The position numbers were made by a program, and so were the translations under genes. A stretch of 64,000 nucleotides of DNA from Sipunculus nudus (lineage: Eukaryota > Annelida > Sipuncula > Golfingiida > Sipunculidae): assembly GCA_026874595.1 (NCBI GenBank), contig CM049307.1, positions 23,413,079-23,477,078 of the forward strand, in the 5' to 3' direction. Within the stretch, counting starts at the first letter, position 1. Each line of letters starts with the position of its first letter. Positions 28,630 to 58,286 of this stretch are shown one piece after another. The notes below the pieces were generated by a model. That model saw nothing but the letters and a program-made list of their open reading frames with translations. It did not search any database and was not told where the DNA came from.

Positions 28630-31235
28630 ACAAGGGACCCATGGGTCACGGCACTCAGCTGTTATATATGATAAAAAATATGATCTGGAAATGAGGCACA
28701 TGCTGGTTTTGTGTGGTAATAAATAATAGCTGTATTATGAGTTGTTGGTGTTTAGCTTATGTATGATTTTGATAGTATCTTTGGAGACAGGGAAGAGGAT
28801 TGATTTCACTTATTTTATTGACAAATGTAGTGCTATTGTCACAAAGATTTTGACTTGGCCATATAACTTATAAGCAGCACATATGATATAAGAGTTTAAC
28901 TATTTATTAAAATTTAATAACAAATATTGTGCCAAATATAATTTTTATTAAAAATAATAAGAGAATCATATGATTTTTTAAAATAAAATATAACTGAAAT
29001 GATTATTAAAATATTATAGAATATATTCATGAATGCATTCATGAATACATTTTGAAAGTATTTGCACTGGTATTCAAATACTTTCATTTTTACCTGAATT
29101 CCTAATCTTATGCAAGAAATGTTATAATGATTCATATTTGTATTCAAATACATTTGCAAAGTATTTGCACCATGTCTGGTATTTATTCAGTTTAAGCCAA
29201 ACCATGATGTTGAGAATCAATATATACAAAATTCACAAATTTAAATAATGATCATAAGTCCCTGGTTTTAGAGCTTTTATTTATATAAAAAAAATAAATG
29301 TAATATATTCACTTTGGACTACTTTCACATCAATCTACACACTAGACACAGTAGGAATCTAGATTAATATTATCAACTGCCTCTTTGTCTATCATTAATT
29401 TTCTTCATGTGATTCCTAATGATTAGTAATGAAAAATATGATTTATTTTTTTTATCATTAAATTGAACTGAAAAATACCACAGGTGACTGCATGGTGTTA
29501 TTTGGAATACTTGACATTCTATCCATCCATACAAGATTCTTACATCATCAGTAACTGCAAGTTAATTTCCTGTTACTCATCAACTAACAAATTCCTTTTC
29601 TATTAATTTTTAATTTGTTATTAAAAACCAATAAAATATTATTAATTTATAGTTTATTGTTATGTTGTTGGTAAAAACAACTACTAGATAAGTTGGGTTG
29701 GACACCTGGATCAACTGTGGCTGGCCATAAGCTGCCTGGCTGCCCCAGTGTATGCCTCGCCTCAAGCGTGCATAATTTGCTGAAAGGTCAACATACAGGT
29801 GACTGAAGAGGGGCTGGGGAGAGCCTGGGTCTGACATGGTCTCATAAAAACATTAATAAAAGTTACAATTTTTGGCCAATTTCTTTTAGCTTTCTAAACT
29901 AAAAAGCTGAAATCCTTATGTGTGCATGATATGAAAATTATATCAACAGTGCTCATAGGAAACAAATGTGCCATTTTCAAAGTTGGGCAAAATTTAAGGT
30001 ACTAAGTTTATATTTATACTAATAACTTATAAAATTTGAAAAATTCAGAACTAATTTTGGGTATTCCATTGAATCTTGATTAAATAATGTTACAATCCTG
30101 ACAAAAAAATCTCTAGCTTCAGCAATCCTCTTGTTAAGGGAGTAAATATATTTCTTGATTTTTTACAAAGTGCATTATGTTTGGGCCCATAACTTAAAAC
30201 AATTATACAATACTGACATCATTTCTGGCATGTGCATAGCGAATATATAGAAAATATGTATATTATATATGATCAAAGTCAGATCAGTGGTTTTGATATT
30301 AGGTAGTCTTGTGTAACAATGGGTTTTTAATGGAAAAATGAAGTTTTCATTAATATCTAAAAGGAATTAAGTCCTAGTGACCAAATTCTTGGCATGGTAG
30401 GGGATTTTGGAGACATCTAACTGTATGCCAAATTTTAGGAACTGAGAGCTGAAGCTGGGGAGCTGAGCTCTAGCAAACTGCACAACACTAGCTTGATGTA
30501 AACAATATGCGACATGGTGCTTGAAAACTTGAATAAAATCTACAGTTTTTGATCAACTGGTTTCAAATTTTTGGTGTTAACAGATGAAATGCTAACAAAA
30601 ACATGCTGGGAAAATTAAATCCACAGCAGTTACAGGAAAAAAATGTGCCATGGTCAAAGTTGGGCAAAATTTAAGGTACCAATTTTTTATTTTTGCTAAT
30701 ATTTAAAAAAATTAAAAGATTTTGATCTAATTTTGAGTATACAATTTGATTTTGATTAATTTAAGTTATATTTCTGGGAAAAAATTCCTTAGCTTAAACA
30801 TGTTTTGTTTTAAATGATCAAATATCTTTCCTGATTTTTTACAAAATGCATTATGTTTGGGCCCATAACTTTTTAAAATTATATAATACAGACCTAATTT
30901 CTGGCATGAACATAGGAACTATACTGAGGAATATTTATGGTAAATATGAGGAAAAACAGATGAGTGGTTTTGATATTTGGCAGTCCTGAAGTGTGAAAAT
31001 AGGTTTTTAATAAAAAATTGAGGTTTTTCCTTAATTTCTCAAATGATCGAACCCACAAAGACCCAGTTTTCAGCTCGGTAGGAGATCTTGGGGACATCAA
31101 ACATTATGCCAAATTTTGGATTCCTAGGTCTTACAGTTTCAAAACGTGCCAGAATAACGGATGGACAATCGGATAGCCGAAGGACAAAGGACCACGACTA
31201 TAGCTCAGATGACTTTTAGTCAGCTGAGCTAAAAA
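28630..31235 (+). mobile_element. Family-1 hairpin element, full copy A (2.6 kb)
   Basis: Starts CAAGGGACCCATGGGTCA and ends GAGCTAAAAA, with 5' arm CTCAGCTG (28653-28660) and 3' hairpin at 31201-31231. Matches copy B at 46311-48900 along its whole length with scattered substitutions and small indels. Internal direct repeat of about 675 bp, marked by tgtttgggcccataactt near 30178 and 30856. No coding capacity seen. Confidence 0.85.
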
Positions 31236-31554
31236 TAACTGAAAACACTAATGTACTACATACTGTTATTAACACATTAACTGATTCCTTTTTCTGGTGA
31301 TCTTTAAATTATCTTTTCATGCTGCACTGATAATTAAAATTGTGCTGTTTTAGAAAATGCTAACTAGAAACCCATCAATACATATACCTGATGGATACTT
31401 AAAATAACTAATCATAAGAATTGTGTAGAATCAAGGCTGCTTCCCACATGAATTGCTTCCAAGATAGAGACTAGATGTGTCGGAACAACACGAATGCCCC
31501 CGCCTTGGGCAAATTAGAAACATTTGTAAAATTTTGAAAATTTTTTTAAGTTCA

Positions 31555-33264
31555 GTGTCGTATGGTCAAAAGTAGGTCAACAAGGGCAAAATGCAAACTC
31601 GATCTGTAACGGGTCATTATCAAGCAACACACCAAAAATCATGCCAGTATATGCAGGCATTGTGAAAAAAAGTCCATACATGTGCATTTTCCATAAAAAT
31701 TTCTGTCTTTCATGAAATTTTCTATGTTTAGGAGCCGTAAAACAATCAAAAGTAGGTCAACCGGGATGAAACGCGAACTCGATCTGTAACTGTCATTATC
31801 TGCCCACACATAAAAAATCAGGGTGGTATCTGCAGGCATTGAGGAAAAAAAGTAAGTATATATGCATTTGTTTTGAAAATTTATATTTTTCATGAAACTT
31901 TCTATGTTCAGGAGCAGTCAAATGGTCAAAAGTAGGTCAACTGAGAGAAAACAAGAACTCGATCTGTAACTGGTCATTATCTGCCTACACACCAAAAATC
32001 AGGCCCGTATCTGCAGGCACTGCGAAAAAAAGTCCATACATATGCACCTTTTTATGAAATTTTCTTTGTTAGAGCACCGTCAAACGGTCAAAAATAGGTC
32101 AACTGGGACAAAACGTGAACTTGATCTGTAACTGGTCATTATCTGCCCACACACCAAAAATCAGGCCAATATCTGCAGGTATTGTGAAGAAAAGTCTGTA
32201 CAAGTGTATTTGTCATGAAAATTTATGTTTTACATGAAATTTTCTATGTTCAGGAGCCGTAAAACAGTCAAAAGTAGGTCAACCAGGACGAAATGCGAAC
32301 TCAATCTGTAACTGGTCAATATCTGGCCACACATCAAAAATCAGGCCAATATCTGCAGGCATTGCAAAAAAAAGTCCGTACATGTGTATTTGTCATGATA
32401 TTTCATATTTTTCATGAAATTTTCTATGTTCAGGAGCCGTAAAACGGTCAAAAGTAGGTCAACCAGGACGAAACCCGAACTCGATCTGTAACAGGTCTAT
32501 ATCTGCCCACACACCAAAAATTAGGCCAATATCTGCAGGCATTGCGAAAAAAAGTCTGTACATGTGTATCTTTCATGAATATTTCTATTTTTCATGAAAT
32601 TTTCTATGTTTGTACAACGGTCAAAAGTAGGTCAACCGGGACGAAACGCGAACTTGATCTGTAACTGGTCTATATTTGCCCACACACCAAAAATCAGGCC
32701 AATATCTGCAGGCATTGCGAAAAAAAGTCCGTACATGTGTATCTGTCATGAATATTTCTATTTTTCATTAAATTTTCTAAGTTTAGGAGCCGTAAAACAG
32801 TCAAAAGTAGGTCAACCAGGATGAAACGCGAACTCGATCTGTAACTGGTCTATATCTGTCCACACACCAAAAATCAGGCCAATATCTGCAGGCACTGCGA
32901 AAAAAAAAATCCATACATGTGTATTTGTCATGAAATTTCATATTTTTCATGAAATTTTCTATGTTCAGGAGCCGTAAAACGGTCAAAAGTAGGTCAACCA
33001 GGACGAAACGCAAACTCGATCTGTAACTGGTCAATATCTGCTCACACACCAAAAATCAGGCCAATATCTGCAGGCATTGCGAAAAAAAGTCCGTACATGT
33101 GTATCTGTCATGAATATTTCTATTTTTCATGAAATTTTCTAAGTTAAGGAGCCGTAAAACGGTCAAAAGTAGGTCAACCGGGACGAAACGCGAACTCGAT
33201 CTGTAACTGGTCTATATCTGCCCACACACCAAAAATTAGGCCAATATCTGCAGGCATTGCGAAA
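31555..33264 (+). repeat. 178-bp satellite, about 10 copies
   Basis: The string gtaggtcaac recurs about every 164-183 bp, from about 31572 to 33164. Units share ctcgatctgtaactggtc, atctgcaggcattgcg, gtccgtacatgtgtat and ttcatgaaattttctatg. Later copies are closer to one another than the first three are. It forms the core of the family-3 element. Confidence 0.92.
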
Positions 33265-33465
33265 CAAGTGACCCATGGGTCATGACGCTCAGCTGACTGG
33301 GAAGAGATTCGCAAAAGGAAATTTTATCATCAGAATGGTAGTATATACCCATTCAACTGAAGCATCAAACAGATTAACCAACAGGCCAAGATTTAGTCTG
33401 TATTTATATATCTCAAAAATAGAGAAAAATGTGTAAACTTTTAAAACTAGAATACGGGTAACCGA

Positions 33466-34622
33466 CAAGTGACTACATGTATCTGCCAAAATCGGATAGT
33501 GAGGCATGGATTGAGTGGCAAGGGGAAATAGAGTGAGGTATGTTGCATATTAGCATGGATGTCTGCAGCCTAAATGTGTATGTAGGTTGTGCCACCTACC
33601 ACAAATCCAGAAAGCTGTCCAAGCTGTATACACCTGCAAAATTTTAGGCAGAAAAGTCAAACCACTACATGTATATGAGCGATTTTTGCCCATGGCAGAC
33701 AAACAGACAAACACTGTGCAAAAATCTTTGCAGGTAACCCCTCCAGTTTTGTGTATGATAAAGACCTATGTGAGATCTAAACACATGCACAATTTTGGCC
33801 CAATCGGTCAAATGGTTCCTGAGATATGGGCTTGGATGTGTCCAGCGTTAACTAGAATGTAGGTGGCGCCACCTGTCATAAAATCAAGAAAGCTGTCCAC
33901 GATGTATAAACCTGCAAAATTTTAGGCAGTTATGTCGAACCACTACAGAGAAATGAGTAATTTTAGGCCACGGCAGACTAACAGACAGACGCTGTGCAAA
34001 CATTGTTACAGGTGGCGCCACCATTTTTTGTGTATGTTACAGAGCTATCAAAGGGCTACATTTGTATAAAGTTTATTTCCTGATCGGTCAAACGGTTCCC
34101 GAGATATAAGCTTGGATGTCATCAGCCTGAACGTGAACGTAGGTGGCGCCACCTGTCATAAAATCAAGAAAGCTATCCTGGATGTATACACATGACGAAT
34201 TTCAGGTAAATTAGTCAATTCACTGCAGAGATATGAGTGATTTTAACCCAAGGCAGATGAACAGATGGACACTGTGCAAACATGGTTACAGGTGGCGCCA
34301 CCATTTTTTGTGTATGTTATAAAGCAATTCAAGGGCTACATTTGTATCAATTTTATTTCCTGATCGGTCAAACGGTTCCCGAGATATGAGGGTTTATGAG
34401 TGGAAACAGACCCACAAATGGACACTGGATAGAGAGGAAAGGTCAGAGGTCAATGCAAATTGGTTAGGCACCAGTTCACATGTGACCCGATAATAGGTGT
34501 AAGTTTGGGAAAAATCGGTCCATTAGTCTCCGAAGAGTTCTCTGGAAACGAACGCCGCCGCGGCGGAGGAACTCGGTCAAAAACATAGTATCCGCAAAAC
34601 TTCGTTTTGGCGGATACAAAAA
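33466..34622 (+). mobile_element. Family-4 hairpin element, longer copy
   Basis: Starts CAAGTGACTACATGTATCTGCC. The arm GTATCTGCC (33479-33487) pairs with GGCGGATAC, the right arm of the hairpin at 34588-34617 (GTATCCGC-AAAAC, loop TTC, GTTTTGGCGGATAC), followed by AAAAA. The body has about three tandem units of 285 bp with four perfect GGTGGCGCCACC palindromes (33862, 34011, 34142, 34291). The true 5' end could be some 10-15 bp further left, since both family-4 copies also share a preceding gggta. Confidence 0.8.
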
Positions 34623-34937
34623 TACAGGTGGCTCCACCAGTCTGCAGAAACTAATAAAAACACTTAATGGTCAATATCCATGCAAAAAATCATGGTGATC
34701 TCTGCATTAGTTGTTCAGATACTTCAGTTTTTGTATCAAATTGTCCATTATTCTGAGGGATACTTCGGAGTCCTATAGCTTGAAGGATATGGGTAACAGA
34801 GACCTAATTTCAAGTTTCCACAGGCACCTTTCATGGGCCTCCTTGCATGACAAGAATGAAGATTCTAGGTCCAGTTGTTGCGATTTGTACCCTGTTGACA
34901 GATAACCACATCTTTAAAGGTCTCAAAAAAAAGAAAA

Positions 34938-36845
34938 CAAGGGACCTATGGGTCACTATGCTCAGCTGAAGTTGACCTTGAAGGTAAAAATCTAAAATAA
35001 TATCAAATGGAGATGCTGTGTAAGAGGAAGAGGTAATATAGGCCATGATTGGTTTATATGATCGGCTTGTACTGATGATGAGCAAGAAATTGTTGCAAAT
35101 AATATTTTGTGACCTAACCATGTGTTTCCTAATGTTGAAATTGAAGCATGTGAGCAGTTTGTGAACAAATGATCTGTAATATTACCATGATCATTAGTTG
35201 GCTTTTTAATTAACTATTGACATTTCAGTAGTTTACACATTTGTTCAATTGAATCTATTTTTTGTATAATATATATTATTAAATATAAATGTATTTTTTT
35301 AATGAAATTTATACAGTTGAAATATAACTAATTAACAACATAAAACAGGGCAAACAAAGCCTGATCTCAAATTCTGCTGAGGCAGGAAAATAATGAACAA
35401 ATGTTTGTATTAAATCCTAATTTTTTTATTACATCAATTTTTTTTATTATAAGTTTATATTTCTATACATTTCCAATATAACATATATATCCGAATATAA
35501 AAGTTGATTCATAATTCTTAATTGCATCATCATAAATCTCAATCTTGTCAGATAACACCACATCATGCATACAAATGTTTATTTATTTTTTACCACAAAA
35601 ATATATCTTTTAAATCTGCAAAACAATAAATATCTTAAAATAATACTTGATTTAGATTTCACAATTTTTAAATGTGTCTTTATTTATCCATAATGTGCTT
35701 CATATTTTATAAATTTAAGCATACTGATGGGTTCAATTATATTTGTTAAAATCATTTAAAAGAAAACTGATTTCTTTAAAAATGCCACATTACACAACAT
35801 TGCATCTTCTGGATTACACCTTGAATTACCTTTTCAAGGAAAGTTTTTGCATATTGGAGTGGAAACAGCATTACAATGAAGGAGATACAGTGAAAACAAT
35901 AACAATTACTGCATAACACTTGGTGGGTTGGGTTTGCCGGGGGGGGGGGGGGGGGGGGGTGATTGGGATGGTGATATGAGAATAACTGTACACCTGTCAC
36001 AGCAGGGGATCTCCCCCAGTGACTGTAACAAATCAGAAACCCTGGCATAGCTGACTTCCATTGACCTAGAGTGGGACCCTGCATCTGTAATCTGTAATCA
36101 AAGCAAATGACTACAACAGAGCCTCAAGAAAAAATCAATAACTAGCCTAATTTTCAAGCTTTTATTTTCAACTTTCAGATTTAAACAAATTAAATATTTA
36201 TGTTTACATGCTGTGAAAATTAAATCAATGGTACTAACAAAAAAAAAATGTGCCATGGTCAAAGTTGGGCAAAATTTAAGGTACTGATTTTATTTTTATG
36301 CGAATAACTTAAAAAATTTACAAAATTCAGATCTAATTTTGGGTAAACAATTGAATCTTAATTAAACATAGTAATATACTTGGGAAAATAGACTCTAGTT
36401 TCAAAATTTTTCATGTTAAGTGAGTAAATATTTTTCCTGATTTTTTACAAAGTCCATTATGTTTGGGCCCATAACTTAAAGAATTTATACTAAACAGACT
36501 TAATATCTGGCATGTACATAGAAACTATATAGAGGAATATTTATGGTAAATATGAGGAAAAACATATGAGTGGTTTTGATATTAGGCAGTCCTGAAGTGT
36601 GAAAATAGGTTTTTAATAAAAAGTTGAGGTTTTTCCTTAATTTCTCAAAGGAACTAAGTCGCAAAGTCCCAGTTTTCGGCTTGGTAGGAGATCTTGGGGA
36701 CATCTAACATTATGCTGAATTTTGGATTCCTAGGTCTTACGGTTTCAAAACGTGCCACATCTACGGACGGACGGACAGACGGACGGACGACGGACAATGG
36801 ACCACGACTATAGCTCAGATGACTTATAGTCAGCTGAGCTAAAAA
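34938..36845 (+). mobile_element. Family-1 hairpin element nested in the 335-bp repeat
   Basis: Starts CAAGGGACCTATGGGTCA and ends GAGCTAAAAA, hairpin at 36811-36841 with a (CGGA)n tract before it. The last 600 bp match the 3' ends of copies A and B. The first two thirds are different, AT-rich sequence that includes a G21 run at 35939-35959. The element therefore shares termini with the 2.6-kb copies but has a different core. Confidence 0.82.
35939..35959 (+). repeat. G21 homopolymer
   Basis: Twenty-one consecutive G on the plus strand inside a family-1 element. It could form a G-quadruplex. Because homopolymers this long are error-prone, the length is uncertain. A G13 run lies at 37001-37013. 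Confidence 0.9.
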
Positions 36846-39540
36846 TTCATAAAAATTTGAAAAAAAATTAGAGGTGGCACACCCAGTCTGCAGAAACTGA
36901 TGGAACAGCTCATGATCAATATGTATGCCGAAAATCATGACCATCAGTGTTGTAGTTATTGAAATACTGCAGTTTTTGTATCAAATTTTCCATTATTCTT
37001 GGGGGGGGGGGGGTATTTTGGACCCATACAGCTTAAAGAATATGGGTAACAGAGACCTAATTTCAAGTTTCCATGGAGACTTTTCATGGGTCTCCCTGTG
37101 TGTCAAGAATGAAGATTCTTGGTCCAGTTTTTATGATTTGTGCCCTGTTAACAGATGTTCATATCTTTAAATGTCTCAAAAATACAGAAAAATTTCGTAA
37201 AAAAAACCGAACAAATACAGGTGGTGCCACCAGTCAGCAGAAAATTATGAAACACTCCATGATCAATATCCATGCAAACAATTATGGTTATCTCTGCATT
37301 AGTTGTTCAGATACTTTAGCTTTTGTATCAAATTTTCCATTATTCTGAGCTGTACTTTGGAGTGCCATAGCTCAAAGGATATGGGTAACAGAGACCAAAT
37401 TTCAGGTTTCCATGGAGACTTATCATGGGTCTCCCTGTGTGTCAAGAACGAAGATTCTAGGTCCAGTCGTTACGATTTGTACCCTGTTGACAGATAACTA
37501 CATCCTTAAAGGTCTCAAAAATGGAGAAAACAATTCGTGAACATTGAAAAATACAGGTGGCGCCACCAGTCTGCACAAACTGATGAAACATCTCATGATC
37601 AATATGTATGTCGAAAATCATGACCATCAGTGATGTAGTTAATGAGATATTGAAGTTTTTGTATGAAATTTTTGACTATTCTGGGGGGTAATTTTGGGCC
37701 CCATAGCTCAAAGGATATGGGTAACAGAGACCTAATTTCTGGTTTCCATGGAGACTTTTCATAGGTCTCTCAGTGTGTCGAAAATGAAGATTCTGGGTCC
37801 AGTCGTTACGATTTGTGCCACGCTAACAGATGACAGCATCCTCAAAGGTCTCAAAAATAGAGGAAAAAATCGTAAAAAATCAAACAGTACAGGTGGCGCC
37901 ACCAGTCTGCAGGAACTGATCGAACATCTCATGATCAATATGTATGCCAAAAATGAAGACCATCAGTGATGTAGTTATTGAGATATTGAAGTTTTTGTAT
38001 GAAATTTTTTACTATTCTGGGGGGGTACTTTGGGGCCCCATAGCTCAAAGGATATGGGTAACAGAGACCTAATTTCTGGTTTCCAAGGAGATTTTTCATG
38101 GACCTCTCAGTGTGTCAAGAATTAAGATTCTAAGTCCAGTCTTTATGATTTGTGCCTTGTTAACAGATGTTCTCATTTTTAAAGGTCTCAAAAATAGAGA
38201 AAAAAATATGTAAAAAATCGAAAAATACAGGTGGCGCCACCAGTCTGCAGGAAGTGATGTAACATCTCATGATCAATATGTATGCCAAAAATCATGACCA
38301 TCAGTCAAGTAGTTAATGAGATATTGAAGTTTTTGTATGAAATTTTTGACTTTTCTGGGGGGTACTTTGGGGCCACATAGCTCGAAGGATATGGGTAACA
38401 GAGACCTAATTTCTGGTTTCCAAGGAGATTTTTTATGGACCTCTCAGAATCCCAAGTTACAAGGTTCTAAGTCAAGCGGTTACGATTTGTGCCTGGTTAA
38501 AGGACGGACAGACGGACAAAGAGTGATCGCTATAGCTCAGATGACTTTCAGTCAGCTGAGCTAAAAAAGTCCGTACAACTGTTTGATTTCGGAATGACGG
38601 AATGACAGAATGACGGAATGACGGACATGGGTAAAACTATATGCCCCGGCCACTTTGTGGCGGGGGCATAAAAACACAGAAAGCTGAAGGCAACATTTGG
38701 GTATTTCTTCTGTAACTTTGCCTGATAGGAGCATAAATAGATTTGGAAGCACTTCGCAGCAGAGTGGGGACATGTCAGCCATAGCAAAGTCTGCAGTGAA
38801 CAAGTGTCATCTAGAGAAGAGCTTACTGTCATAGGCCCTGGTGTGCAAAGACTCTGCTTTGTGACGGCTCATTCAAGTTTGGACTGCTGTGCAGCTTACT
38901 AAAACTGATCACCACCCTGTGTATACCTGATGTTTAGCAAAATTTATTCAGAGCTTATGTTCTTCTCACATTTAAAGCCAGCTGAGCACTGCCCTCACTA
39001 CCCTGATCTGACATGAAAGATTTTATAAAAATCTTAAATTCATATTTGATGACCTTTAGGTCTCTTTTCTACGGTCAAAAAACGATGAATGTTTTCATGT
39101 GCTTAAACCAAACATGCTAATTTTGTAAATACAAAATCATATCCAATACATATCAATGATTATGTTCTTTTCTCCTGTGATCATGGTTATCCACAACCAA
39201 TAATTGGTTAAACATGTATAAACACACTACTGTCTGAGAAATCACAGTCATGATATTATTCAAATATACTGGGAGGCATCTTTGTTTTCCAAGTATGATG
39301 ACAATAAGGTTACTGCCCTAGTTTGTCAATGCAACTTGCATTGTTATCATGAACAATGCCCCAGCAAAGGAAAATATTGCCAAAACACAGGTGAACACAG
39401 ATATGGTGGTATAGAGTATAGACACATTCTGATGCTTAAGATGTGTTTCTGCCTAGTTCAGGCCATTACTCTATGCCCTGTTCTGGCACATGCTGCCTTC
39501 ATTCACAACAATATCACTACAAGTCCATTTTAAGTCTCAC

Positions 39541-40448: not shown

Positions 40449-40503
<55 letters not shown>

Positions 40504-41874: not shown

Positions 41875-42205
41875 CTGTTTCCATGATTGCATATAAAGAG
41901 TTCAAAAGGACATGAGCATCTGTCAAGATATGTGATATCTACTCTGGACAAGACATATTTTGTAATAAAAGTATAAACTAGTAAAAAGGGTAACTGATGG
42001 AGACACAGCAATTAATCCACGGACTAAGATGTCAGGCTGCACCAATGCTATATAATCAGGAATGAATGCAGAACAAGCAATGCTTATTAATATCCAGCCC
42101 TATCTTAACTTGTTTTATCATTGTGTATCTCCCTTATTCTCAATTTAATCTTATTGATTTTTTTGCCTTACCAACAGAATGAACTAGAATATCAGCAGAA
42201 GCTGA

Positions 42206-43219
42206 CAAAAGCCCTCAGCCAAAAGAACAGTGTTTAGAGGTGGTAACAGTAACAAGTACTAAATATCTGTTCTCACATGGATGTATATCTGTACATGTCT
42301 CAGTTATAAATTTAAAATGGAGAGGCATGTACCATGATTCATAAAAATTCACCAAATGCTTCCTGAAAAATAAGCTTCTAAGTTTTATTCTATTATCAGC
42401 TCTGTGACCTTGAAAAGTATGTCAAGGTCACCCATCTTTGAACTTGACCTAGATTTTGTCGATATACAGCTTCACCAAAGAAATAAAATTCCTATTGTGA
42501 ATCCTTTTAGAGATATCCCGCGCACAAGGCCAAAGTTGAAAAATCCAAGAAAAATTCATTAAAAATAAGATATTGCAGGTGGCGCCCCCAAACTTGTGCA
42601 GCAGTTACAGACCATCACTCCCTATGATCATAGTAAGTATTGTGAAAATCTAGCCAATGGTTCCTGAGAAATAAGTTTCTAAATGTTTTTTCTATAATCA
42701 GCTCTTAAACGTAGAAAAATAGGTCAAGGTCACCCATCTTCGAACTTGACCGAGATTTTGTCAATATACATCTTCACCGAAAAAATAAAATTCCTACGGT
42801 GAATCCTTTTAGAGATATCCCGCTCACAAGCCCAAAGTTGAAAAATCCGATAAACTTCATTAAAAATCAGATATTGTAGGTGGCGCCACCAAACTTGTGC
42901 AGCAGGTACAGATTATCAGTCCCAATAATCATAGTAAGTTTTGTGAAAATCCACCAAATGGTTCCTGAGTAATTAGCATCTAAGTGTTTTTCTATAATCA
43001 GCTCTAAAATGTAGAAAAATAGGTCAAGGTCACCCATCTTCGAACTTGACCGAGATTTTGTCGATATACATCTTTACCGAGGAAATAAAATTCTGACGGT
43101 GAATCCTTTTCAAGATGTCCCGCTCACAAGGTAAAAGTTAACGGACGCCGGACGGACGGACGGACGGACAGCTTGGGTGACGACAATAGCCCATCAGCCT
43201 AAGGGCTGAGGGCTAAAAA
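42206..43219 (+). mobile_element. Family-2 hairpin element (1.0 kb)
   Basis: Starts CAAAAGCCCTCAGCC. The arm GCCCTCAGCC (42211-42220) is the exact reverse complement of GGCTGAGGGC in the 3' hairpin (43187-43215: TAGCCC-A-TCAGCC, loop TAAG, GGCTGA-GGGCTA), which is followed by AAAA. The body is 2.7 tandem units of about 300 bp; ggtcaaggtcacccatctt recurs at 42421, 42721 and 43021. A (CGGA)n tract at 43140-43170 precedes the hairpin. One perfect GGTGGCGCCACC palindrome lies at 42879-42890. No coding capacity. Confidence 0.85.
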
Positions 43220-44369
43220 GTCAAAAGTTTGAATGGGATATATCTGTGGGAATTCTGAAGTTTTAGTAGCTAGTTTAAAAATCATGAGAGCTAAAGGGCC
43301 ACAAAGATAAGTGTAACAGCAGAAAAGAACATTTTTCAATTTTGTACCCACAGATGCTTCATATGACACATGCTACATTGGTACACAACTTCCAGTGCAA
43401 CTTTTCCTACTTTTAAAAAATTGAAATTTTCCACTGCACAAGTGAATTTTGATAAAAACAGAAAAAAACAATAACTGACATGCAGTCTCACATCATGCCA
43501 GAGGTTTACTATCAGAAAATTGAAAGGTGCAATGTGTTCACTCTTCAAAAACTGCACATCTTTCATAAAAGAAAGAATGTTTTGAAAATAAAAAAACAAA
43601 CCAGTTCCTTTAATCACATATAAATCAATCCAGTATCTCCTTTCCCTAAATGCTAATTCTTTTGTGTTACCTCCATTCCATGGGAGTATTAATAAGATAT
43701 TCTATGTGTTTTAAATCAACTCTCAAGAGCCACAAGCATCCCATACAGTTACATAATAAAGTCTTTGAACTTGAGACAATGTACTACCAAGTCTCTTTTC
43801 TAAAACTCTTTACTAAACTACTATCATAGCATAATGATGTGATGTCATTGGATTCTTTATTTACTTGGGAGCTGGGTAAAAATATCTTCTCTTCCTGAAG
43901 AGTACCCGAACTTCTTTAGTATAGATAAGATGCTAAGCTGGACAATAGAAATTCATCTGTTTTGCTGTAGAAGCCATGCTTTTTTTTCAGATGATGCTGG
44001 AGATATAGTCATGGAGATAACTTTGCAAGTATGAAAGCTTAAATAGATGCTGAAACAGATAAATCTTGACCATTTACGGCAAAACAACCTATCCAATGAC
44101 AAAGAATTATTATCACCCATTGACTATCTGCTGAGCTAACAAAGAATTTACAAGGACATATATACATTGTTCTTACCAGACATGACAAGGAAACTGTCAC
44201 AGACATGAAAAGCTTCAGCCTGAACAGCAAGTTCCAATACATCATTCATAAACATAATAAATATTGAAGGCTTTCGCAGTCAGATGTTTTTATTAACTAC
44301 AACACTGACCAGGCGTCAACCATTTCAAGAAAAGGTACTACAAATGTTAATTACAATAAGGGTAGTCAA

Positions 44370-45245
44370 CAAGCGACTACGTGTATCTGCCGAAATCAGA
44401 GTGGGACGGGTGAAGTGAGGCATGGAGTGGCAAGGGGAAATAGAGTGAGGTGTGTTGCATATTAGCATGGATGTCTGCAGCCGAAATATGTATGTAGGTG
44501 GCCCCACCTGCCGCAAAATCCAGAAAGCTATCCCAGTTGTATAAATATGCAACATTTTAGGCAGATACGTCACACCACTGCCGAGATTTGAGTGATTTTA
44601 TCCCACGGCACACAAACAGACGAACGCTGTGCAAAAAAGGTTGCAGGTGTGCCAACATTTTTGCGTATGATAAAGAGCTATGTATGATCAATACAAATGC
44701 AAAATTTCAGGAGGATACATCAAACCAGTCACGAGATATAAGCCTGGATGTCTTCAGCCTGAACGTGTATGCAAGTGGGGCCACCTGTCATAAAATCAAG
44801 AAAGCTATCCAGGATGTATACACATGTTAAATTTCAGGTGGATAAGTCCAACCACTGCAGAGATATGATCTGAGTGATTTTATTCCAAGGCAGATGAAAA
44901 AATGGACACTGTGCAAAAATGGTTGGTGGCACCACCATTTATAAAGCTATCCAAGGGCTACATTTGTGCAAAATTTTTAGCCTGATTGGTGAAACGAGTC
45001 CGAAGATATGTGGGTTAATGTGTCAAAACGGATGCACAGATGGATGCACTGGACAGAGGAAAGGTCAGAGGTCCATGCAAAATATTTTGGCATCAGTTCA
45101 CATGTGACCCAATAATGGTGTAAAGTTTTTAGAAAAATCTGTCCAGTGGTCTCAGAGTTCTATTCTTGAAACTAACGCTGCGGCGGTGGCAGAACCTGGT
45201 CAAAAACATAGTATCCGCAAAACTTTATTTTGGAAGATACAAAAA
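44370..45245 (+). mobile_element. Family-4 hairpin element, shorter copy
   Basis: Starts CAAGCGACTACGTGTATCTGCC and ends GATACAAAAA. The 5' arm GTATCTGCC (44383-44391) corresponds to the 3' hairpin at 45211-45240, whose right arm has decayed (ggaagatac in place of ggcggatac). Internal sequence matches the other family-4 copy at 33466-34622 but with fewer tandem units. No coding capacity seen. Confidence 0.8.
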
Positions 45246-45657: not shown

Positions 45658-48600
45658 CTACAAAGGATGCCACATTGCTAACTACTCAAGTCACACAAAT
45701 AAACACAGAAAATGACACATCTGTATGAACTGATAGTCATTTTGCTTTCACAAGTAGGAGACAACCGTGTGAATACATTTGTCTTATTTTACAAAAAAAG
45801 ACATGAAAATTCCATTTGAGTCCAATTGGCTGCATGCTCAACACAAAACGTGCATTCCATCATGATGGTAATTATATGCTATTATTTATTTATTTTTCAG
45901 TACAACACTCCTCACTGGTAAAAGTTTTAAACCTACAGTAAATATCTGGTGTTATACTGAAGCAAACAGGTTTACATTTGGCTCACAGGGAATTTAACAC
46001 TGTAAAGGAAACAGCTCCCTTATCTGAGAATTATACCACTACAGCAAGGCCAAAAAAGCTCATGCAGCACAATGTCCCACTGAAATGGTATACAGATTAG
46101 CTGAAGTACAATGTTACTGTAACAAACTTTTTTTATGGATGGATAGGAGTAGGAATAAGAGAAATATGTATCAAAGATTAAAGGGAAATGGTCAAGAGCA
46201 AGATGTAAAATATAACTTGTATGAAAATTCAAGGTACACCATCTGAAGACAGGCGAATCTTCAACAGAAGAGGAAAAGGAAGAAACTGAAGTATCATCAT
46301 AAAAGGCAAACAAGGGACCTATGGGTCACGACGCTCAGCTGTTATATATGATAAAAAAATATTATTTAGAAATGAGGCAAATGCTGGTTTTGTGTGGTAA
46401 TAAATATAAGCTGTATTATGAGTTGTTGTTGTTTAGCTAAAGTATGATTTTGATAGTACCTTTGGAGACGGGGAAGAGGATTGATTTCATTTATTTTATT
46501 AACAAATGGAGTACTATTGTCACACAGATTTTGACTTGGCCATATAACTTATAAGCAGAACATATAAATAAGAGTTTAACTATTTATTAAAAAAAATTAC
46601 AAATATTGTCCCAAATATAATTTTTATTAAAAATAATAAGAGAATCATATGATTTTTTAAAATGAAATCTAACTGAAATGATTATTAAAATAATATTAAA
46701 GAATATATTTATGAATGCATTCATGAATACATTTTGAAAGTATTTGCACGAGTATTCATATACTTTCATTTTTACCTGAATTCCCATTCTTTATGCAAGA
46801 AATTTTATAATGGAGTACATAATCATATTCGTATTTAAATACAATTACAAAGTATTCGCACCATGTCTGGTATTTATTCAGTTTTCACCAAACAATGATG
46901 TTGAGAATCCAGAATATACAAAATTCACACATTTAAATAACGATCATAAGTACCTGGTTGTATGGCTTTTATTTATATTTAAAAAATAACTGTAAAAAAT
47001 TCATTTTGGACTAATTTCACATCAATGTACACACTAGACACAGTAGGAATCTAGATTAATATTATCAACTGCATCTTTGTCTATCATTAATTTCCTTCAT
47101 ATGATCCCTAATGATTTGAAATGAATAATATGATTTACTTCTTTATCATTAAAATTTGAACTGAATAATGCCATAGGTGACTGCATGGTGTTATTTGGAA
47201 TACGTGACATTCTACCCATCGATACAAGATTCTTATATCATCAGTAACTGCAAGTTAATTTCCTGTTATTATAAACTCCTTTTCTATTTTTCTTTAATTT
47301 TTTATTAAAAACCAATAAAAATTTATTAATTTATTGTTTATTGTTAAGTTGTTGGTTAAAACTACAAGATGAGTTGGGTTGGACACCTGGATCAACTGTG
47401 GCTGGCCATAAGCTGCCTGGATTCCGTGTATGCCTCGCCTCAAGCATGCATTATACAGGTGACTCAAGAGGGGCACGAGAGAGCCAAAGTCTGACAGGGT
47501 CTCATAAAAAACATTAATAAAAGCTACAATTTTTGGCCAATTTCTTTCAGCTTTCTAAACTAAAAAGCTGAAATCCTTATGTGTGCATGATATGAAAATT
47601 ATATCAACAGTGGTCATGGGAAACAAACGTGCCATGGTCACAGTTGGGCAAAATTTAAGGTACTAATTTTATATTTATATTAATAACTTATAAAATTTGA
47701 AAAATTCAGAACTAATTTTGGGTATTCAATTCAATCTTGAATAAATAATGTTACATGCCTGACAAAAAAATCTCTAGCTTCAGCAATGCCCTTGTTAAGG
47801 GAGTAAATATATTTCTTGATTTTTCACAAAGTGCATTATGTTTGGGCCCATAACTTAAAACAATTACGAAATACTGACATCATTCTGGCATGTGCATAGA
47901 GATTGAAAAATATGTATATTATTTATGATTAAAGTCAGATCAGTGGTTTTGATATTTGGCAGTCTTGAAGTGTAACAATGGGTTTTTAATGGAAAAATGA
48001 AGTTTTTCATTAATATCTCGAAGGTATTAAGTCCTAGTGACCAAATTCTTGGCATGGTAGGGGATTTTGGAGACATCTAACTGTATGCCGAATTTAAGGA
48101 ACTTAGAGCTGAAGCTGGGAAGCTTGGCTCTTGCAAACTGCATAACACTAGCTTGATGTAAACAATATGTTACATGGTGCTTGAAAACTTGAATAAAATC
48201 TACAGTTTTTGATCAACTGGTTTCAAATTTTTGGTGTTAACAGTTGAAATGCTAACAAAAACATGCTGTGAAAATTAAATCCACAGTACTTACAGGAAAA
48301 AAATGTGCCATGGTCAAATTTGGGCAAAATTTAAGGTACCAATTTTTTATTTTTATTAATATTTTAAAAAATTTAAAAGATTTTGTTCTAATTTTGGGTA
48401 TACAATTTGATTTTAATTATTTAAAGTTATATTACTGGAAAAAAGGTCCATAGCTTTAACATTTTTTGTGTTAAGTGATCAAATATCTTTCCTGATTTTT
48501 TACAAAATGCATTATGTTTGGGCCCATAACTTTTTTAAATTAAATAATACAGACATAATTTCTGGCATGTACATAGGAACTATATAGAGGAATATTTATG

Positions 48601-49859
48601 GTAAATATGAGGAAAAACAGATGAGTGGCTTTGATATTAGGCAGTCCTGAAGTGTGAAAATAGGTTTTTTATAAAAAATTGAGGTTTTTCCTTAATTTCT
48701 CAAAGGAATGAAGTTGCAAAGACCCAGTTTTCGGCTTGGTAGGAGATCTTGGGGACATCAAACATTATGCCGAATTTTGGATTCCTAGGTCTTACGGTTT
48801 CAAAACGTGCCACATCTACGGACGGACGGACAGACGGACGGACGACGGACAATGGACCACGACTATAGCTCAGATGACTTATAGTCAGCTGAGCTAAAAA
48901 GCTACTTCTATGTAACCAAAATAATCAAAGATCAAGCATGTATCAAACATACAACAAGGATCAAACATTAGGATGGTAAAAACATCATCTGTGTCGAAGA
49001 ATAAAAAGACTGAACATAGATAATTATTAAACCCGAAATCTTGCTTGGTGATTTCATGCATCTAAGGCTTACTGACCCTCTAACTTTGAACATTTACACC
49101 CTGGTAAATGAGAAACCTCCTTCATGAAAGACAGACAGCTGGCACCAATCCACTGGTTCTCTTATTTAACTGCTGATATAATCATTCATCAATGACGCAC
49201 ACTATATTTTACAAAGACTGTACCCAAAGCTTTCTAACTTCAACAGAGAGGTCAGTGGCAGGTTGTTGAATGACCTGTCTGTCTGTTATCAGTATAAGCA
49301 CAGTGCAAACAGTGGACATGTTTCCAAGATGCCCTTACTGCACAGCATATAGTTGCAATATCAAAGCAATTCCTCCACCCAGAAAGTGATGATCCCATGG
49401 GCCAGAGTTATTTTTATGTTACTGACAAGTGTGGGAAAGATTCCAGGATTTGCACCAGTAAATTCCTCATTGTTAGTAGGATAGCAATGCTATTATGTCA
49501 TACATTTTCATCAATTATCACCATATGAAGCAGAGTTTGTTGGATGTTAGTCAGATCTGCTAGTCCATGCAGCAATGCTAATGCATCATGTACCACTTGA
49601 GGTAATCAAGGATGATATAATCAGAAGATTATACCATGTCAGAGATTAGCACAAACTAGTAGAAGATTTTTAGACTAGTTTAATCATGCAGCATGAAAAT
49701 GAAGATGAAAAGCAAACTATATGACTAATAAAGGAAACAGAAGAAGTGATGTCAGAAAAGGAAATGTAAAATCTCATTTACATCCAAAGTAAGAAAAGAA
49801 CCAACACCACCAAATGAAGAGAGGACCAAAGGAATCAGAAATAGTTCCAGGTCTGATAC
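45658..49859 (-). other. Tail intron carrying a 2.6-kb mobile element
   Basis: About 4.2 kb. Most of it is the family-1 element at 46311-48900. The flanks 45658-46310 and 48901-49859 are AT-rich with nothing recognised. Confidence 0.8.
46311..48900 (+). mobile_element. Family-1 hairpin element, full copy B (2.6 kb)
   Basis: Starts CAAGGGACCTATGGGTCA and ends GAGCTAAAAA. The subterminal arm GCTCAGCT at 46333-46340 is complementary to the outer arm of the 3' hairpin (48866-48896: TAGCTCAG-A-TGACT, loop TAT, AGTCA-G-CTGAGCTA). A (CGGA)n tract precedes the hairpin near 48823-48850. Close to copy A (28630-31235) along its length, judged by eye. Inside is a roughly 675-bp direct repeat, marked by tgtttgggcccataactt near 47838 and 48516. 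No open frame for a transposase was seen, so the copy is non-autonomous. It has no obvious target-site duplication. Confidence 0.85.
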
Positions 49860-50000: not shown

Positions 50001-50732
50001 CTGTTAGATAAATGTGCAGGCACCTTTGTTATTCATCTTATACATGCCTGAGGGAGATAACTGAATCAACAGTGTTTTGGGCTGTACCATGCAGTAGACT
50101 GTTTCTCTGATCCTGCATTAGACAATTTACTTAACACTAATCTCCAGAATGATTAAGGACTGTTATTTACTCACTGTATCCATGGCAGTAACCACTTGTC
50201 CTTGGCCTTAACTTACACATGCCTTTCATGGGTTTTATGATGTTAGTCAATAACTATGATTCTATGCAGTTATTTATAACAAGCAAAAACATTATGGTAC
50301 TCAAGATTTAAGTTATCATGGGTTGAAAGTTGATGTAGAACTATGATTGACAGCTGTATTTTATGCTGAACGATGCATCGGTCTAACACTTCTCAGATGT
50401 TTGGGTTATGATGAAGACAACATTAATTCATCATCACAATAGCTGAAAATGAAAGGAAACTGCACAAACCACATCACACTTGACAGAACTTGGATAACTC
50501 AGATGTGCTTTATAATTGCTTCAGCAAAACACATTTTTGTTATAACTTTACTGGTTGTGACATGCCAAAATCTGTAGTGACAGTACGGTGGGACAACATC
50601 TCATTTTTGTTACCAGAGGTGTGACATCACAAGCAATTTGTTACTTAAGTTCCAATTGTGCAATACTCAAATTGGTTTTTGTTACTATGGTTATACATAA
50701 AATATCAGTTTTGTTACTCTTGTAACAATTGT

Positions 50733-50850
50733 GACATCATCAAAAACAGTGTTTGCAACTATATCAACATTTGTAATATAATTTGAAAGGTGACATCATC
50801 AAAAACAGTGTTTGCAACTATATCAACATTTGTAATATAATTTGAAAGGT
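50733..50850. repeat. 59-bp tandem duplication
   Basis: The segment beginning gacatcatcaaaaacagtg and ending aatataatttgaaaggt occurs twice back to back with essentially no differences, so the duplication looks recent. Confidence 0.9.
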
Positions 50851-51222: not shown

Positions 51223-51340
51223 ACATGCACACATGTAGACATTATATAGATAAACTTATGAACATGCACACATGTAGACATTATATCGATAAAATTATGA
51301 ACATGCACACATGTAGACATTATATGGATAAAATTAGATT
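51223..51340. repeat. 39-bp tandem repeat, three copies
   Basis: The string acatgcacacatgtagac starts at 51223, 51262 and 51301, each followed by attatat-gataaa. The core gcacacatgt is partly palindromic. Confidence 0.9.
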
Positions 51341-53681: not shown

Positions 53682-53739
53682 CTGGCTTCTTCTTCTGTGA
53701 ATCTTTCCTTTCAATGCTTGGCTCAGAGATTTCTGAATC
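53682..53739 (-). CDS. ANK: Ankyrin tail exon, small
   Basis: A 58-nt exon, phase 0 to phase 1, between tacattgcag and CCAG|GTGAGT. It encodes DSEISEPSIERKDSQKKKP. Its phase-0 start pairs only with the phase-0 end of exon 54495-54595, which supports both calls. Confidence 0.88.
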
Positions 53740-54494: not shown

Positions 54495-54595
54495 CTTGGC
54501 AAGATCTTGTTCATCATATGACACATCCAGGGATACCCCTCTAGGGATGGAAGAGCCTCGAGATGGACCAAGTTCTTCTTTGAAAGCATCAAAGC
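54495..54595 (-). CDS. ANK: Ankyrin tail exon after death domain
   Basis: A 101-nt exon, phase 1 to phase 0, donor AAG|GTAACT. It encodes GFDAFKEELGPSRGSSIPRG and then VSLDVSYDEQDLAK. It includes SSIP, which fits the SxIP pattern used by some microtubule-tip proteins to bind EB proteins, though the motif alone is weak evidence. The start uses gtgtgtgcag, directly after the long AT microsatellite. Confidence 0.88.
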
Positions 54596-54609
54596 CTGCA
54601 CACAAACAC

Positions 54610-54612
<3 letters not shown>

Positions 54613-54681
<69 letters not shown>
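54613..54681. repeat. (AT)n microsatellite next to a splice acceptor
   Basis: About 69 bp of pure AT dinucleotides. On the minus strand the tract ends only about 17 nt before the acceptor of exon 54495-54595, so it takes up the expected branch-point region. The rest of this 460-bp intron (54596-55055) holds nothing else recognised. Confidence 0.95.
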
Positions 54682-54683
<2 letters not shown>

Positions 54684-55014
54684 TTCAAGTTATGACCACC
54701 AACAGGACCTCCATAAAGCGGTCGCATTATCAATGAGGTTTTTTCAGCAGGGTCTTATATAATGAGCAAAACAGAATTGGGAATGTGAAAATGTGGTGGT
54801 TATTTTTAGGTGGCTGCTAAACAGAGGTATTCGTTAGGTGAGGTTTTACTGTATATATGCACACACACATTTCTCTCTTCTTATAAAATTTATATTATTT
54901 TTTGCTTAAATGTTCACATAAAACAGAAATGACCATTACAGTATTTAATAATTAAGCTTTTGATTGATAAGTAAGCAAACCAAAGCAATCAATATAATAA
55001 ATGGTACATATAAC

Positions 55015-55032
55015 ATATATATATATATATAA
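55015..55032. repeat. Short (AT)n tract
   Basis: About 18 bp of AT dinucleotides starting some 24 nt inside the intron after the death-domain exon, on the donor side. The opposite end of the same intron carries a much longer (AT)n tract. Confidence 0.9.
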
Positions 55033-55055
55033 TTATTTACAGCTGGCATCCCTAC

Positions 55056-55184
55056 CTGCTTGGTCTATATGGACTTTGGCTACAGCTCGCTCTACGGCAT
55101 CTGACACTTCTTCTTGGTCTTTTTTACATTTGTCTATCACATCTTCGCGGCCTATGTTTCGTAGAGCAACCTCTAGCTCATTGC
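55056..55184 (-). CDS. ANK: Ankyrin exon: death domain, C-terminal helix
   Basis: A 129-nt phase 1-1 exon. It encodes NELEVALRNIGREDVIDKC, the last death-domain helices (family pattern: AL--I-R-DI), then an acidic and basic helical stretch ending AVAKVHIDQA. Acceptor ctgtttccag and donor GCAG|GTAGGG are clear. The folded core of the protein ends here. Confidence 0.96.
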
Positions 55185-55607
55185 CTGGAAACAGAAAGAT
55201 TTCACTGTGGTAGCACGTGAAATTATTCCACTGCATGGGTGCAAAATGAACAGACTGATTTGATATTTCTTTTGAGCAATATATGAAACATGTACAAACC
55301 TTATAAACCATAGCTCTCACCTCTCATGTTATTTATAGCAAAACAATGTAGTAGTAACAGTTTTATCTTGTATCTTTTTTGCACTGACAAATCAGAGATT
55401 AGTCTTATTTATGTTTTTAGTAGATATTTCAATTTTTTCATCAGCAAAGAAAAGACAACGAATGTGAAAATATTTAATCAAAACAAAACTTGAAACCTCT
55501 ATCAAATGACAACAAAATTTTCAATATTAATTAGCATAATCTAGGCTCAGTGGTACCCTTGGATAAAGAAGTAAATAGACATATCTTTTCTGGGCATTAT
55601 GTTTTAC
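55185..55607 (-). other. Intron inside death domain
   Basis: About 0.42 kb of AT-rich intron. Nothing recognised. Confidence 0.8.
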
Positions 55608-55808
55608 CTGTAGCTTTGCTGCCATTTTTATCAACCCATTGCTGTAGCATGGCTTGCGCCTGCTCACTGGGATAGGTATATTCAGTTTGTATAGTGGTAA
55701 TCTCTTCCTCAGTAAATTGCAGTTCCCGGGCTAAAATAACCCAGTCTCCCTGCAGTTGGTCACCTATATCTGCCAATCGCAGCTCAGCCCGGCTGATCTT
55801 TTCTTCGC
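55608..55808 (-). CDS. ANK: Ankyrin exon: death domain, main part
   Basis: A 201-nt phase 1-1 exon. It encodes GEEKISRAELRLADIGDQL, GDWVILARELQFTEEEITTI, YPSEQAQAMLQQWVDKNG and SKAT. This is the six-helix death domain of ankyrins: the pattern W-LA-EL-F--EI--I, then a hydrophobic-rich ML--WV---G helix. In ankyrins this domain lies between UPA and the variable tail. Acceptor ctctttacag, donor ACAG|GTAAAA. Confidence 0.97.
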
Positions 55809-56080
55809 CTGTAAAGAGCACAACCTCTCATTGAAACTTTTACCTTTTCTTTTCAATTGCACCATTAGAAAACAAATCAAAGTTTCTCAATGACATAAGT
55901 AAAATTTATTATGACATTAATCAAATATTGAATCAAATTTGTTTATCTAACAAACTTTAAACATTTTTTTTGGTTATTCAATGGGCTCTGTATCCTTTTG
56001 ATAACATGAGTAGTTGGTTAATTCCTGTATATGAATACTTTGTGTACCAAAATAAACCGACACATTAAGTAAAAAGAAAG

Positions 56081-56085
<5 letters not shown>

Positions 56086-56131
<46 letters not shown>
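56086..56131. repeat. (TA)n microsatellite
   Basis: About 46 bp of uninterrupted TA dinucleotides in the 415-bp intron (55809-56224) between the linker exon and the death-domain exon. Nothing else was recognised in that intron. Confidence 0.95.
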
Positions 56132-56135
<4 letters not shown>

Positions 56136-56224
56136 AGCCAATGAAATTAGCACTATCTTATTAAATACAAGGACCATTTTACAACAATATATATGGTCTG
56201 TGAAATCGGAGGATATGTCTGTAC

Positions 56225-56303
56225 CTGGGGCTCCCCTGAGGATGTCGTACTGCTGCCGTAGTTGCATGGCTGCATCTGAATCGAGGTCAATGGTGCTGTC
56301 ACC
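56225..56303 (-). CDS. ANK: Ankyrin exon: UPA to death-domain linker
   Basis: A 79-nt exon, phase 0 to phase 1, with acceptor ctgtgttgcag and donor CCAG|GTACAG. It encodes GDSTIDLDSDAAMQLRQQYD and then ILRGAP plus a split glycine. The segment is acidic and probably flexible, and sits just before the death domain as in other ankyrins. From here on nearly every junction is phase 1. Confidence 0.92.
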
Positions 56304-56720
56304 CTGCAACACAGAACCAACAGATCAAATCTAACATTCACACAAAAAAATCCAACAGATTGAATCTAACATTTATGGTTTTTATTTCAGAGTCATTTAC
56401 AACAGGACTCAAAGATGCATTGATTCCTTTTACAATTGCTGAAGCTGTGGAATAAAATGGTTTACCTTTTAAATCTGAGATATATATATGATTATGAAAT
56501 GAAATGTTTTTATTAATATTTTTATTGCAATAATAAATTGAGATGACAACAGGAATTATATTTGTAGAATTTGTAACCTAACTTCAAAACAAAATAATAA
56601 CTAAACCTTGGAAATGCACTAACTTATTTCACATGTGCATATTTCAATGTGTTTGAACTATTTATGAAAACTCTGGAAGTATTTGTGTGCATTACAAGTT
56701 GTACCATCTTATCCACTTAC
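56304..56720 (-). other. Intron between UPA and linker exons
   Basis: About 0.42 kb of AT-rich intron. Nothing recognised. Confidence 0.8.
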
Positions 56721-56972
56721 CTTGGCCACATCTGGAAGTTTAATATTGAGGTTACAGATAGGTGTTTGTGGTGCTTCGCCCCGGGCCACCTTCGGCTCCT
56801 TCATGAAGGCGATGCGACCAACAGGCTCTTGGTTCAGGTCACGTGTGCGCACGTTGAAGGGCAGCCGGTTTTCACGGAACGCATGGAAGTTTACATTCAG
56901 CTGTTCACCGGACTTGGTCACAGGTACCAAGTTGCCTGCCATCTCCACGTACTGAGGTTTGCCGTCGAGCAC
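56721..56972 (-). CDS. ANK: Ankyrin exon: UPA domain, second part
   Basis: A 252-nt phase 0-0 exon. It encodes [20 protein letters not shown], then [17 protein letters not shown], then [18 protein letters not shown], then [13 protein letters not shown]. The family reads [42 protein letters not shown] and ICNLNITLP at the same places. It completes the UPA domain and leads into the linker before the death domain. Acceptor gtctttcag and donor AAG|GTAAGT are both near consensus. The GC content is clearly higher than in the flanking introns. Confidence 0.98.
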
Positions 56973-58286
56973 CTGAAAGACAAAAGAAATATCATGTTTA
57001 GCATCATACCTGAAAAAGATACAAGGAGAGAAATATACTGAAATATACAGATTCTCACATATTTACATATTATGAAAATGTACTCACATATTTTCAGTCA
57101 ATGAATTATTAAAAATAGGTTACACTGAAATTAAAAGTAACAGTAGTATTACCTCATATGCTTGCCCCTTCTGATGTTAATGGTCTTGATAATAATGTCT
57201 TGTTAACTTTAAACAAAAGCTTGAATTGTACAGCTGTACACATCCAAATCAACTTACCCTCTACTTAAGCCATGTATGTAGCCTTACCCAGATTATTAAC
57301 TTCAGCAAGCAATTGTTAGTATCTTGATTTAAAGTACCAATTTGTTGGTCATTCTAAGTTGAGTAACATTTCCATATATTGAGCTATATCAGCTTGTTAC
57401 AGACCATCAATAAACTAAGTTTCTGCTATTAGATATGCCTTAAAATTCCACAGACATTGAGCATACCCAATATAAAACAGACCCCCTTCTTTTTGAAGCA
57501 TTGACATCTTCCAGATCTGACCATGGAGGTCAAGGTAAAAAATTTGATAGAAATCTGTCAATTAGTGTTTTAATTATATTGTTCATACTTTATACTAAGG
57601 GGCAGTGAAAAGAATCTTAAACTGGCAAAACTGGCAAAAAGTCCAAAGGTGACACCACCAGTCTTCTGAACAAGACAAAGCTATTCAAGATCTTCTAGCA
57701 AAATCTACAGTTTTGTGTGATTTCTATCCCCCCAAAAAAGACCTATTCATAGTCAAGGCTCTCGCATAATAGAGGTAATGACCTTATTTCAAATAGACTT
57801 CATCCTCTCAACCATATCTATCAATTTGCAAAGTTTAATTAGGTTTCCAAGATTTTTCATGGATCTCCTTAGATATGAAGGTAGAAGATTCCAGAACCAG
57901 CGGTTACAATTTGTGCCTGGTTAACTAACCGACAGACGGACGGACAGACGCTAGATAATGAGTGATTGCTATAGGTCAGATGACTTTCAGTCAGCTGAGC
58001 TCAAAATGATAGTGAAAAAGATCATAAAAATATTTTTCGAGTTATGGTGTGTACAATGTTGTTTTACGGCAGTGACGCAAACCTGTTTTAATAGAATCTC
58101 TGACTTCTCAGTCTAGGGATACAATGATTCTCTAATATTTTGGTTATTTTGAAGATCAAAGGTCTTGATATCTAGCAAAATTGTTCACCCACTACATCTC
58201 TTCTAAAACTGTCGATTTTTATGCTGCTCTACAAGCTCTTTTACGTTAACCTTCAACATGAAACTACTGTTAATAATTATACCCAC
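56973..58286 (-). other. Intron within UPA domain
   Basis: About 1.3 kb. Its right half holds the decayed family-1 element. The left part (56973-57640) is AT-rich with nothing recognised. Confidence 0.8.
57640..58006 (+). mobile_element. Decayed family-1 hairpin element, 3' end
   Basis: A degenerate copy lying in an ankyrin intron. It keeps the GGTGaCaCCACCAGTC core of the 335-bp repeat near 57647, the strings agcggttacaatttgtgcct and gacagacggacggacagacg, and the terminal hairpin at 57972-58002. The hairpin's left arm is mutated (taggtcag), and the tail reads ctcaaaa instead of ctaaaaa. No 5' terminus was found. Confidence 0.7.

Follow-up and report, generated by a model that had tools for sequence, protein, structure and literature searches.

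Helentron-type elements without coding capacity (HINEs) have been described with a 5' subterminal inverted repeat (subTIR) and its complementary repeat, a microsatellite, tandem repeats, a 3' subTIR, a palindrome and T-rich insertion sites (PMC4067079; PMC7492417; here and below, comparisons refer to the consulted passages of the cited papers). The Cg_HINE of the Pacific oyster combines a 5' subTIR with a complementary inverted repeat, a GTCC/GTCY microsatellite, tandem repeats, and a 3' subTIR with palindrome, and inserts into TT-rich targets without target duplication (PMC7492417), all of which resembles what we describe here. The DINE-1/HINEs and Helentrons of flies, mosquito and mite are likewise similar, since subTIRs and a 3' stem-loop are common to these and to elements coding for Rep, helicase and endonuclease, and insertion occurs at TT with Ts at the boundaries (PMC4067079). 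Helitron2 elements share with our copies a 5' arm within a 5' hairpin and a 3' arm just upstream of the 3' hairpin, and pairing of these arms has been proposed to set the endpoint of replication (PMC3627910). Oyster Helitron-like sequences end in CTAG with a hairpin, as do several insertions analysed here, and subTIRs were reported for 257 of 751 of them (PMC7992393). An added endonuclease is a mark of Helentrons (PMC5148889). HINEs spread satellite-like repeats through bivalve genomes, and the consulted passages leave the enzyme source unnamed (PMC7492417; PMC7992393): autonomous Helentrons were not relatable to the Cg_HINEs (PMC7492417), and autonomous elements were undetected for the oyster Helitron-like sequences (PMC7992393). 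Within the open-licence literature, the consulted parts of PMC10294476 and PMC11136912 make no mention of autonomous partners for such elements. We show here that insertions in an ankyrin gene of Sipunculus nudus are, with a probability of about 95%, non-autonomous Helentrons of the Helitron2 group, whose A/D-type ends are shared with the Rep-helicase groups alpha to delta and whose B-type ends are shared with group zeta. The kind of element is already known; what is new are autonomous relatives of repeat-carrying HINEs in the same genome. In contrast to both oyster cases, coding elements carry the HINE ends here, and the repeats are also shared between D and alpha and between B and zeta.

The window, the whole stretch of 64,000 nt that was analysed, belongs to an assembly of 1.43 Gb. 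The host gene lies on the minus strand, and a UPA_2 domain (81.5 bits, window positions 58203-58592) is consistent with its assignment to ankyrin. Comparison of the window with itself and reading of the sequence gave nine copies from five sequence families between 28.6 and 58.0 kb (Table 1): A1-A3, B, C1-C2, D, E and a D-type relic. TRF finds tandem-repeat periods of 180, 280, 336 and 301 bp in the bodies; the A bodies consist of direct repeats of about 600 bp in the self-comparison. None of the nine insertions contains an open frame of at least 120 aa. Several copies are nested, B containing D, and D containing both C1 and A2. The B repeat array breaks off at 33264 and the remaining B end picks up past 38562; D was placed in the A-run of B because an uninterrupted B copy elsewhere (d_L034) shows the joined form.

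Table 1. Insertions in the ankyrin gene, in window coordinates.
Element	Position	Strand	Remarks
A1, HINE with A/D-type ends	28631..31230	-	true 5' hairpin end 31230 (A-run to 31235); 3' end CTTG at 28631
B, HINE with ~180-bp repeats, split by D	31471..38669	-	5' hairpin 38641-38669; 3' end CTAG at 31471; relative of group zeta
D, HINE with ~336-bp repeats	33265..38562	-	inside the A-run of B; itself split by C1 and A2; 3' end CTTG at 33265; resembles autonomous group alpha in its 5' end and repeats
C1, HINE with ~280-bp repeats, nested in D	33447..34617	-	3' end CTAG at 33447; 5' hairpin 34588-34617
A2, HINE with A/D-type ends, nested in D	34938..36840	-	
E, HINE with ~301-bp repeats	42184..43215	-	3' end CTAG at 42184; 5' hairpin 43187-43215
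C2, older copy of C	44351..45240	-	3' CTAG decayed; start approximate
A3, HINE ~90% identical to A1	46311..48895	-	
Relic of D-type HINE, 5' hairpin end kept	57640..58002	-	left limit approximate

The true 5' to 3' orientation of the insertions is that of the window's minus strand, because coding elements with the same ends read that way. On this strand a T-run is followed by an arm and its complementary repeat, which form a 5' hairpin, by a microsatellite in most copies, by the repeats, by an inverted copy of the arm, and finally by a short palindrome or hairpin and the terminal CTTG (A and D) or CTAG (B, C and E) adjoining a T. The microsatellite is a GTCC-like run in A, D and E and a GTCATTCC-like run in B, and none was seen in C. 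There are at least four terminus types among these HINEs, namely A/D, B, C and E. A first-pass annotation had already recognised nine insertions with tandem or long direct repeats as bodies, with arms and hairpins and devoid of coding capacity, and all of this stands. It had, however, read the elements in reverse, missed their nesting and overlooked the short palindrome or hairpin at the end it took for 5'. Its rule that they start with CAAG or CAAA holds for A and D, which start with CAAG in window orientation, whereas filled/empty pairs and genome counts place a CTAG at the start of B, C1 and E; the start of C2 is decayed, and the start proposed for C falls inside the terminal hairpin of that family.

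The subterminal inverted repeats (subTIR/ATIR), the 5' arm within a 5' hairpin and the 3' palindrome expected of Helentrons and HINEs are all present. The arms of an element's own two ends match with a score of 8-13 in 8/8 elements, compared to 3-8 between unrelated types; the left arm proposed by the first-pass annotation matches the right arm of the hairpin in the same element. For old copies the arm match by itself is weak, being equalled by 51 (A1) and 82 (C2) of 3000 random 50-mers from the window, and the assignment of these ends is settled by genome-wide copies. The 5' hairpins fold better than shuffled sequences in all five cases tested (z -3.6 to -5.5), whereas the 3' palindromes do not in any of five (z -1.2 to 0.5); as sequence, the latter are present in A, B, D, E and intact C ends, immediately beyond the 3' arm. 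In the predicted folds the hairpins of A/D, B and C, unrelated in sequence, are nearly alike in geometry: a stem of 8 pairs, a single C left unpaired on the 5' side, a further 5 pairs and a loop of 3, with family C having a bulge where A, D and B have a mismatch. E differs, its hairpin having 6 pairs on each side of a bulge that lies on the other strand, and a loop of 4. The exact A/D hairpin pattern occurs 19,841 times genome-wide and 0 times in the reversed control. Among the 100 matches listed of these 19,841, the position opposite the unpaired C holds T 98 times, C once and A once; G, the base that could form a pair there, is not among them. The copies share ancestry and are hence not independent. 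The ends recur in a comparable manner: the 34-nt A/D end is found 17,636 times when one mismatch is allowed, against none in the reversed control, and E ends 2,392 times with at most three mismatches. Exact ends are found in their thousands across the genome, in keeping with the assignment to HINEs and Helentrons.

Autonomous relatives were sought among elements coding for Rep and helicase. Pfam-type profiles match the assembly at least 143 times for Helitron_like_N and at least 150 times for PIF1, and the DNA downstream of 34 PIF1 loci, hand-chosen for long frames and diversity and not at random, was examined. A full A/D-type 3' end lies downstream of Rep-helicase in 21/34 loci in forward and 1/34 in reverse orientation, the 21 including L025, whose ends lie 2.5-2.8 kb into the stretch and probably belong to neighbouring HINEs. 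A B-type 3' end follows in two of the 34 (L022 and L029; none in reverse), and in 11/34 there is no A/D, B or E end. The full end serves as an orientation control; the 16-nt palindrome alone, which is its own reverse complement and is found in 20/34 loci both ways, does not. Within each autonomous group the 3' end sits at one place and the sequence beyond it differs. A/D ends are common to groups alpha, beta, gamma and delta, and B ends to group zeta. Where alpha carries GACCCATGGGTC, beta carries GGCCCATGGGCC, so that the two halves of the palindrome have changed in concert (GACC/GGTC to GGCC/GGCC). An automatic hairpin search had missed the ends in the first four autonomous loci because the A/D palindrome is almost loopless; targeted motifs found one end among these four, in L006, and a generic scan, which asked for CTWGT next to a hairpin and for a 5' arm to match, recovered the same end, its other matches being chance-like. 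For C, a loose end pattern gave no signal of a partner (5/34 loci forward, two of them B ends, and 5/34 reversed), and the E pattern was absent from the 34 loci in either direction. The copies of C within alpha are insertions, as the filled/empty comparison shows. In the extended class-a loci L049 and L050 no A/D, B or E end was found, and the single loose C-pattern match is in reverse.

The 5' ends extend the correspondence. In two of four alpha copies with upstream DNA, L038 and L040, the mutual match sets in exactly at TTTT+AGCTCAGCTGACT, the A/D 5' end, and the flanking sequences are unrelated (the L010 stretch starts inside the 5' end and L039 stops short of it); this 5' end is followed by units about 80% like those of D. 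The match between the two zeta copies starts exactly at TTTTTATGCCCCCGCC, the B 5' end, and B-type units follow. Over the first 80 bases B agrees with the two zeta copies at 78 and 72 positions, and over the last 60 at 45 and 46; for D and alpha the corresponding figures are 67/80 and 37/60, the difference lying beyond the last ~35 bases, and the last 35 bases of D equal those of gamma. D is therefore alpha-like in 5' end and core, yet does not derive by mere deletion from the alpha elements seen. For delta no 5' end was found within 12 kb upstream of Rep (two copies), and for beta none within 6-9 kb upstream (three copies). As a separate observation, alpha elements contain a second, internal 5'-type hairpin end inside the D-type repeats (a_L038:1619; a_L040:1801; L010 709 reverse), giving the impression of a tandem pair of 5' ends. 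The alpha frame in L006 (2342 aa) contains DUF6570, Helitron_like_N, PIF1 and an OTU-like N-terminal match (Herpes_teg_N model), with Exo_endo_phos at 20.5 bits, below the Pfam cut-off of 24.5. Exo_endo_phos reaches 42.6 in the class-a frame of L005 (2230 aa), and the zeta pieces hold PIF1 (93.7) and Exo_endo_phos (37.8), both above cut-off. Thus, elements with Rep, helicase, endonuclease and the same termini exist for the A/D and B types, the alpha endonuclease being sub-threshold, and the assignment to HINEs and Helentrons that the first-pass annotation had proposed is borne out by these coding elements (A/D 21/34, B 2/34).

Might a cut-and-paste transposase instead have mobilised the insertions, which would then be repeat-containing MITEs or DNA transposons with terminal inverted repeats? 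The short inverted repeats near both ends would fit. The arms, however, lie subterminally and are asymmetric, and the coding elements that share these ends code for Rep and helicase. Moreover, four filled/empty pairs cover both junctions (B in beta, B in delta, C in alpha and D in B) and a fifth, another C in alpha, covers one, and the only letters common to the junctions are Ts (or As) of the run. No other duplication is seen, so that the target duplications looked for as a sign of such transposons are missing from these pairs, and this alternative is extremely improbable. In window orientation the base adjoining the 3' end is A in 2020/2036 exact B ends, 3866/3897 D ends and 5174/5216 C ends, 99.2% when pooled. 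Insertion is hence T-rich (TT) and without target duplication, as in Helentrons and HINEs. Canonical Helitrons (Helitron1), with a 5' TC and no hairpin at that end, one 3' hairpin, a CTRR end and insertion between A and T, are suggested by the CTAG before T in B, C and E with a short hairpin just inside it. The 5' ends, in contrast, are a T-run and a hairpin arm rather than TC, inverted subterminal arms are present, A/D copies end in CTTG and zeta contains an endonuclease domain, which makes membership of Helitron1 very unlikely.

Accepting Helentrons, one may ask whether the cores are inherited together with the 5' end or exchanged freely between ends, as the first-pass annotation had suggested. 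Exchange is in line with A and D, which have the same 5' ends and different bodies, and with D, which is alpha-like at the 5' end and in the core and gamma-like over its last 35 bases. D and alpha, as well as B and zeta, nevertheless keep the same core beside the same 5' end in non-coding and coding elements alike, so for D and B free exchange finds no support. Units of the families (33824-34103, 37882-38220, 42645-42945, 30524-31116 and 32800-32979) were also compared, and 3/10 pairs are weakly similar when oriented alike with respect to the ends (A-D, z 6.5; D-E, z 5.7; B-D, z 4.6; 60 shuffles), compared to 0/10 in the opposite orientation (highest z 2.8). This one-orientation similarity perhaps reflects a remote common ancestor of the unit sequences and speaks against free exchange, which we consider rather unlikely. 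Inheritance of the core with the 5' end is the more probable reading, with some exchange still possible in view of the gamma-like end of D.

How such HINEs move can be outlined as a putative mechanism. The Rep of a partner element would nick at the T-run, the helicase would peel off one strand, rolling-circle copying would follow, and the copy would be joined between Ts without target duplication. Each terminus type has its own arm. This arm could either fold as the local 5' hairpin with one mismatch or bulge, or pair uninterrupted with the inverted copy just inside the 3' palindrome, and its switching between partners could signal that replication is complete, an idea taken from the endpoint proposed for Helitron2 (PMC3627910). 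Where the ends are better preserved (D, alpha, B, zeta and E), the arm pairs uninterrupted with its 3' copy, and this pairing is predicted to be stronger than that with its own hairpin partner in these five of seven cases (in zeta by 0.2 kcal/mol); it is predicted to be weaker in A1, where 9 pairs are left, and in C1, where decay has broken it. We thus formulate a testable candidate rule, that a mismatch or bulge is retained in the 5' hairpin whereas the arm matches its 3' copy uninterrupted. A retained 5' mismatch set against an uninterrupted match of the arms is not described in the consulted parts of the Helitron2 paper, and the words mismatch and bulge are absent from its main text (PMC3627910). 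Tentatively, and as a possibility short of even odds, the 5' hairpin might act as a metastable, family-specific switch, its local pairing kept weaker so that the two ends meet once copying is complete. If so, the arm code would separate families, because the arms of one type match each other better than they match those of other types, and the body would be free to hold any tandem repeat. The two coding groups with the same ends and repeats make it testable whether the repeats originate in the 5' non-coding part of an autonomous element, and whether the code of the paired arms decides which protein moves which family.

Some further repeats were noted in the window. The palindrome GGTGGCGCCACC, common to D, C and E units, has 16 near-matches in the window against 0.3 expected, all of them in D, C or E copies or the D-type relic and none in A or B sequence; exact 12-mers lie at 33862, 34011, 34142, 34291, 37556, 37892, 38230 and 42879. 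Its 15-nt form AGGTGGCGCCACCNG gives 82,819 strand-matches genome-wide against 2 for the reversed pattern, a count that is inflated since sites with CAGGTGGCGCCACCTG are counted twice. The palindrome of the D, C and E units may resemble the CTCF core; a search of open-licence texts for the 12-mer listed a single paper, which concerns a bacterial enzyme. Inside long minus-strand frames of the host gene there are tandem repeats of 192 bp and 111 bp (18682-19063 and 25136-25421). Outside the elements lie a perfect two-copy tandem duplication of 59 bp (50731-50850) and a 2.9-copy repeat of 39 bp (51223-51336). Two four-copy arrays of the 21-bp unit TATGTCGTACGTACGAGATAA (232-315 and 408-491) also match each other in inverted orientation.
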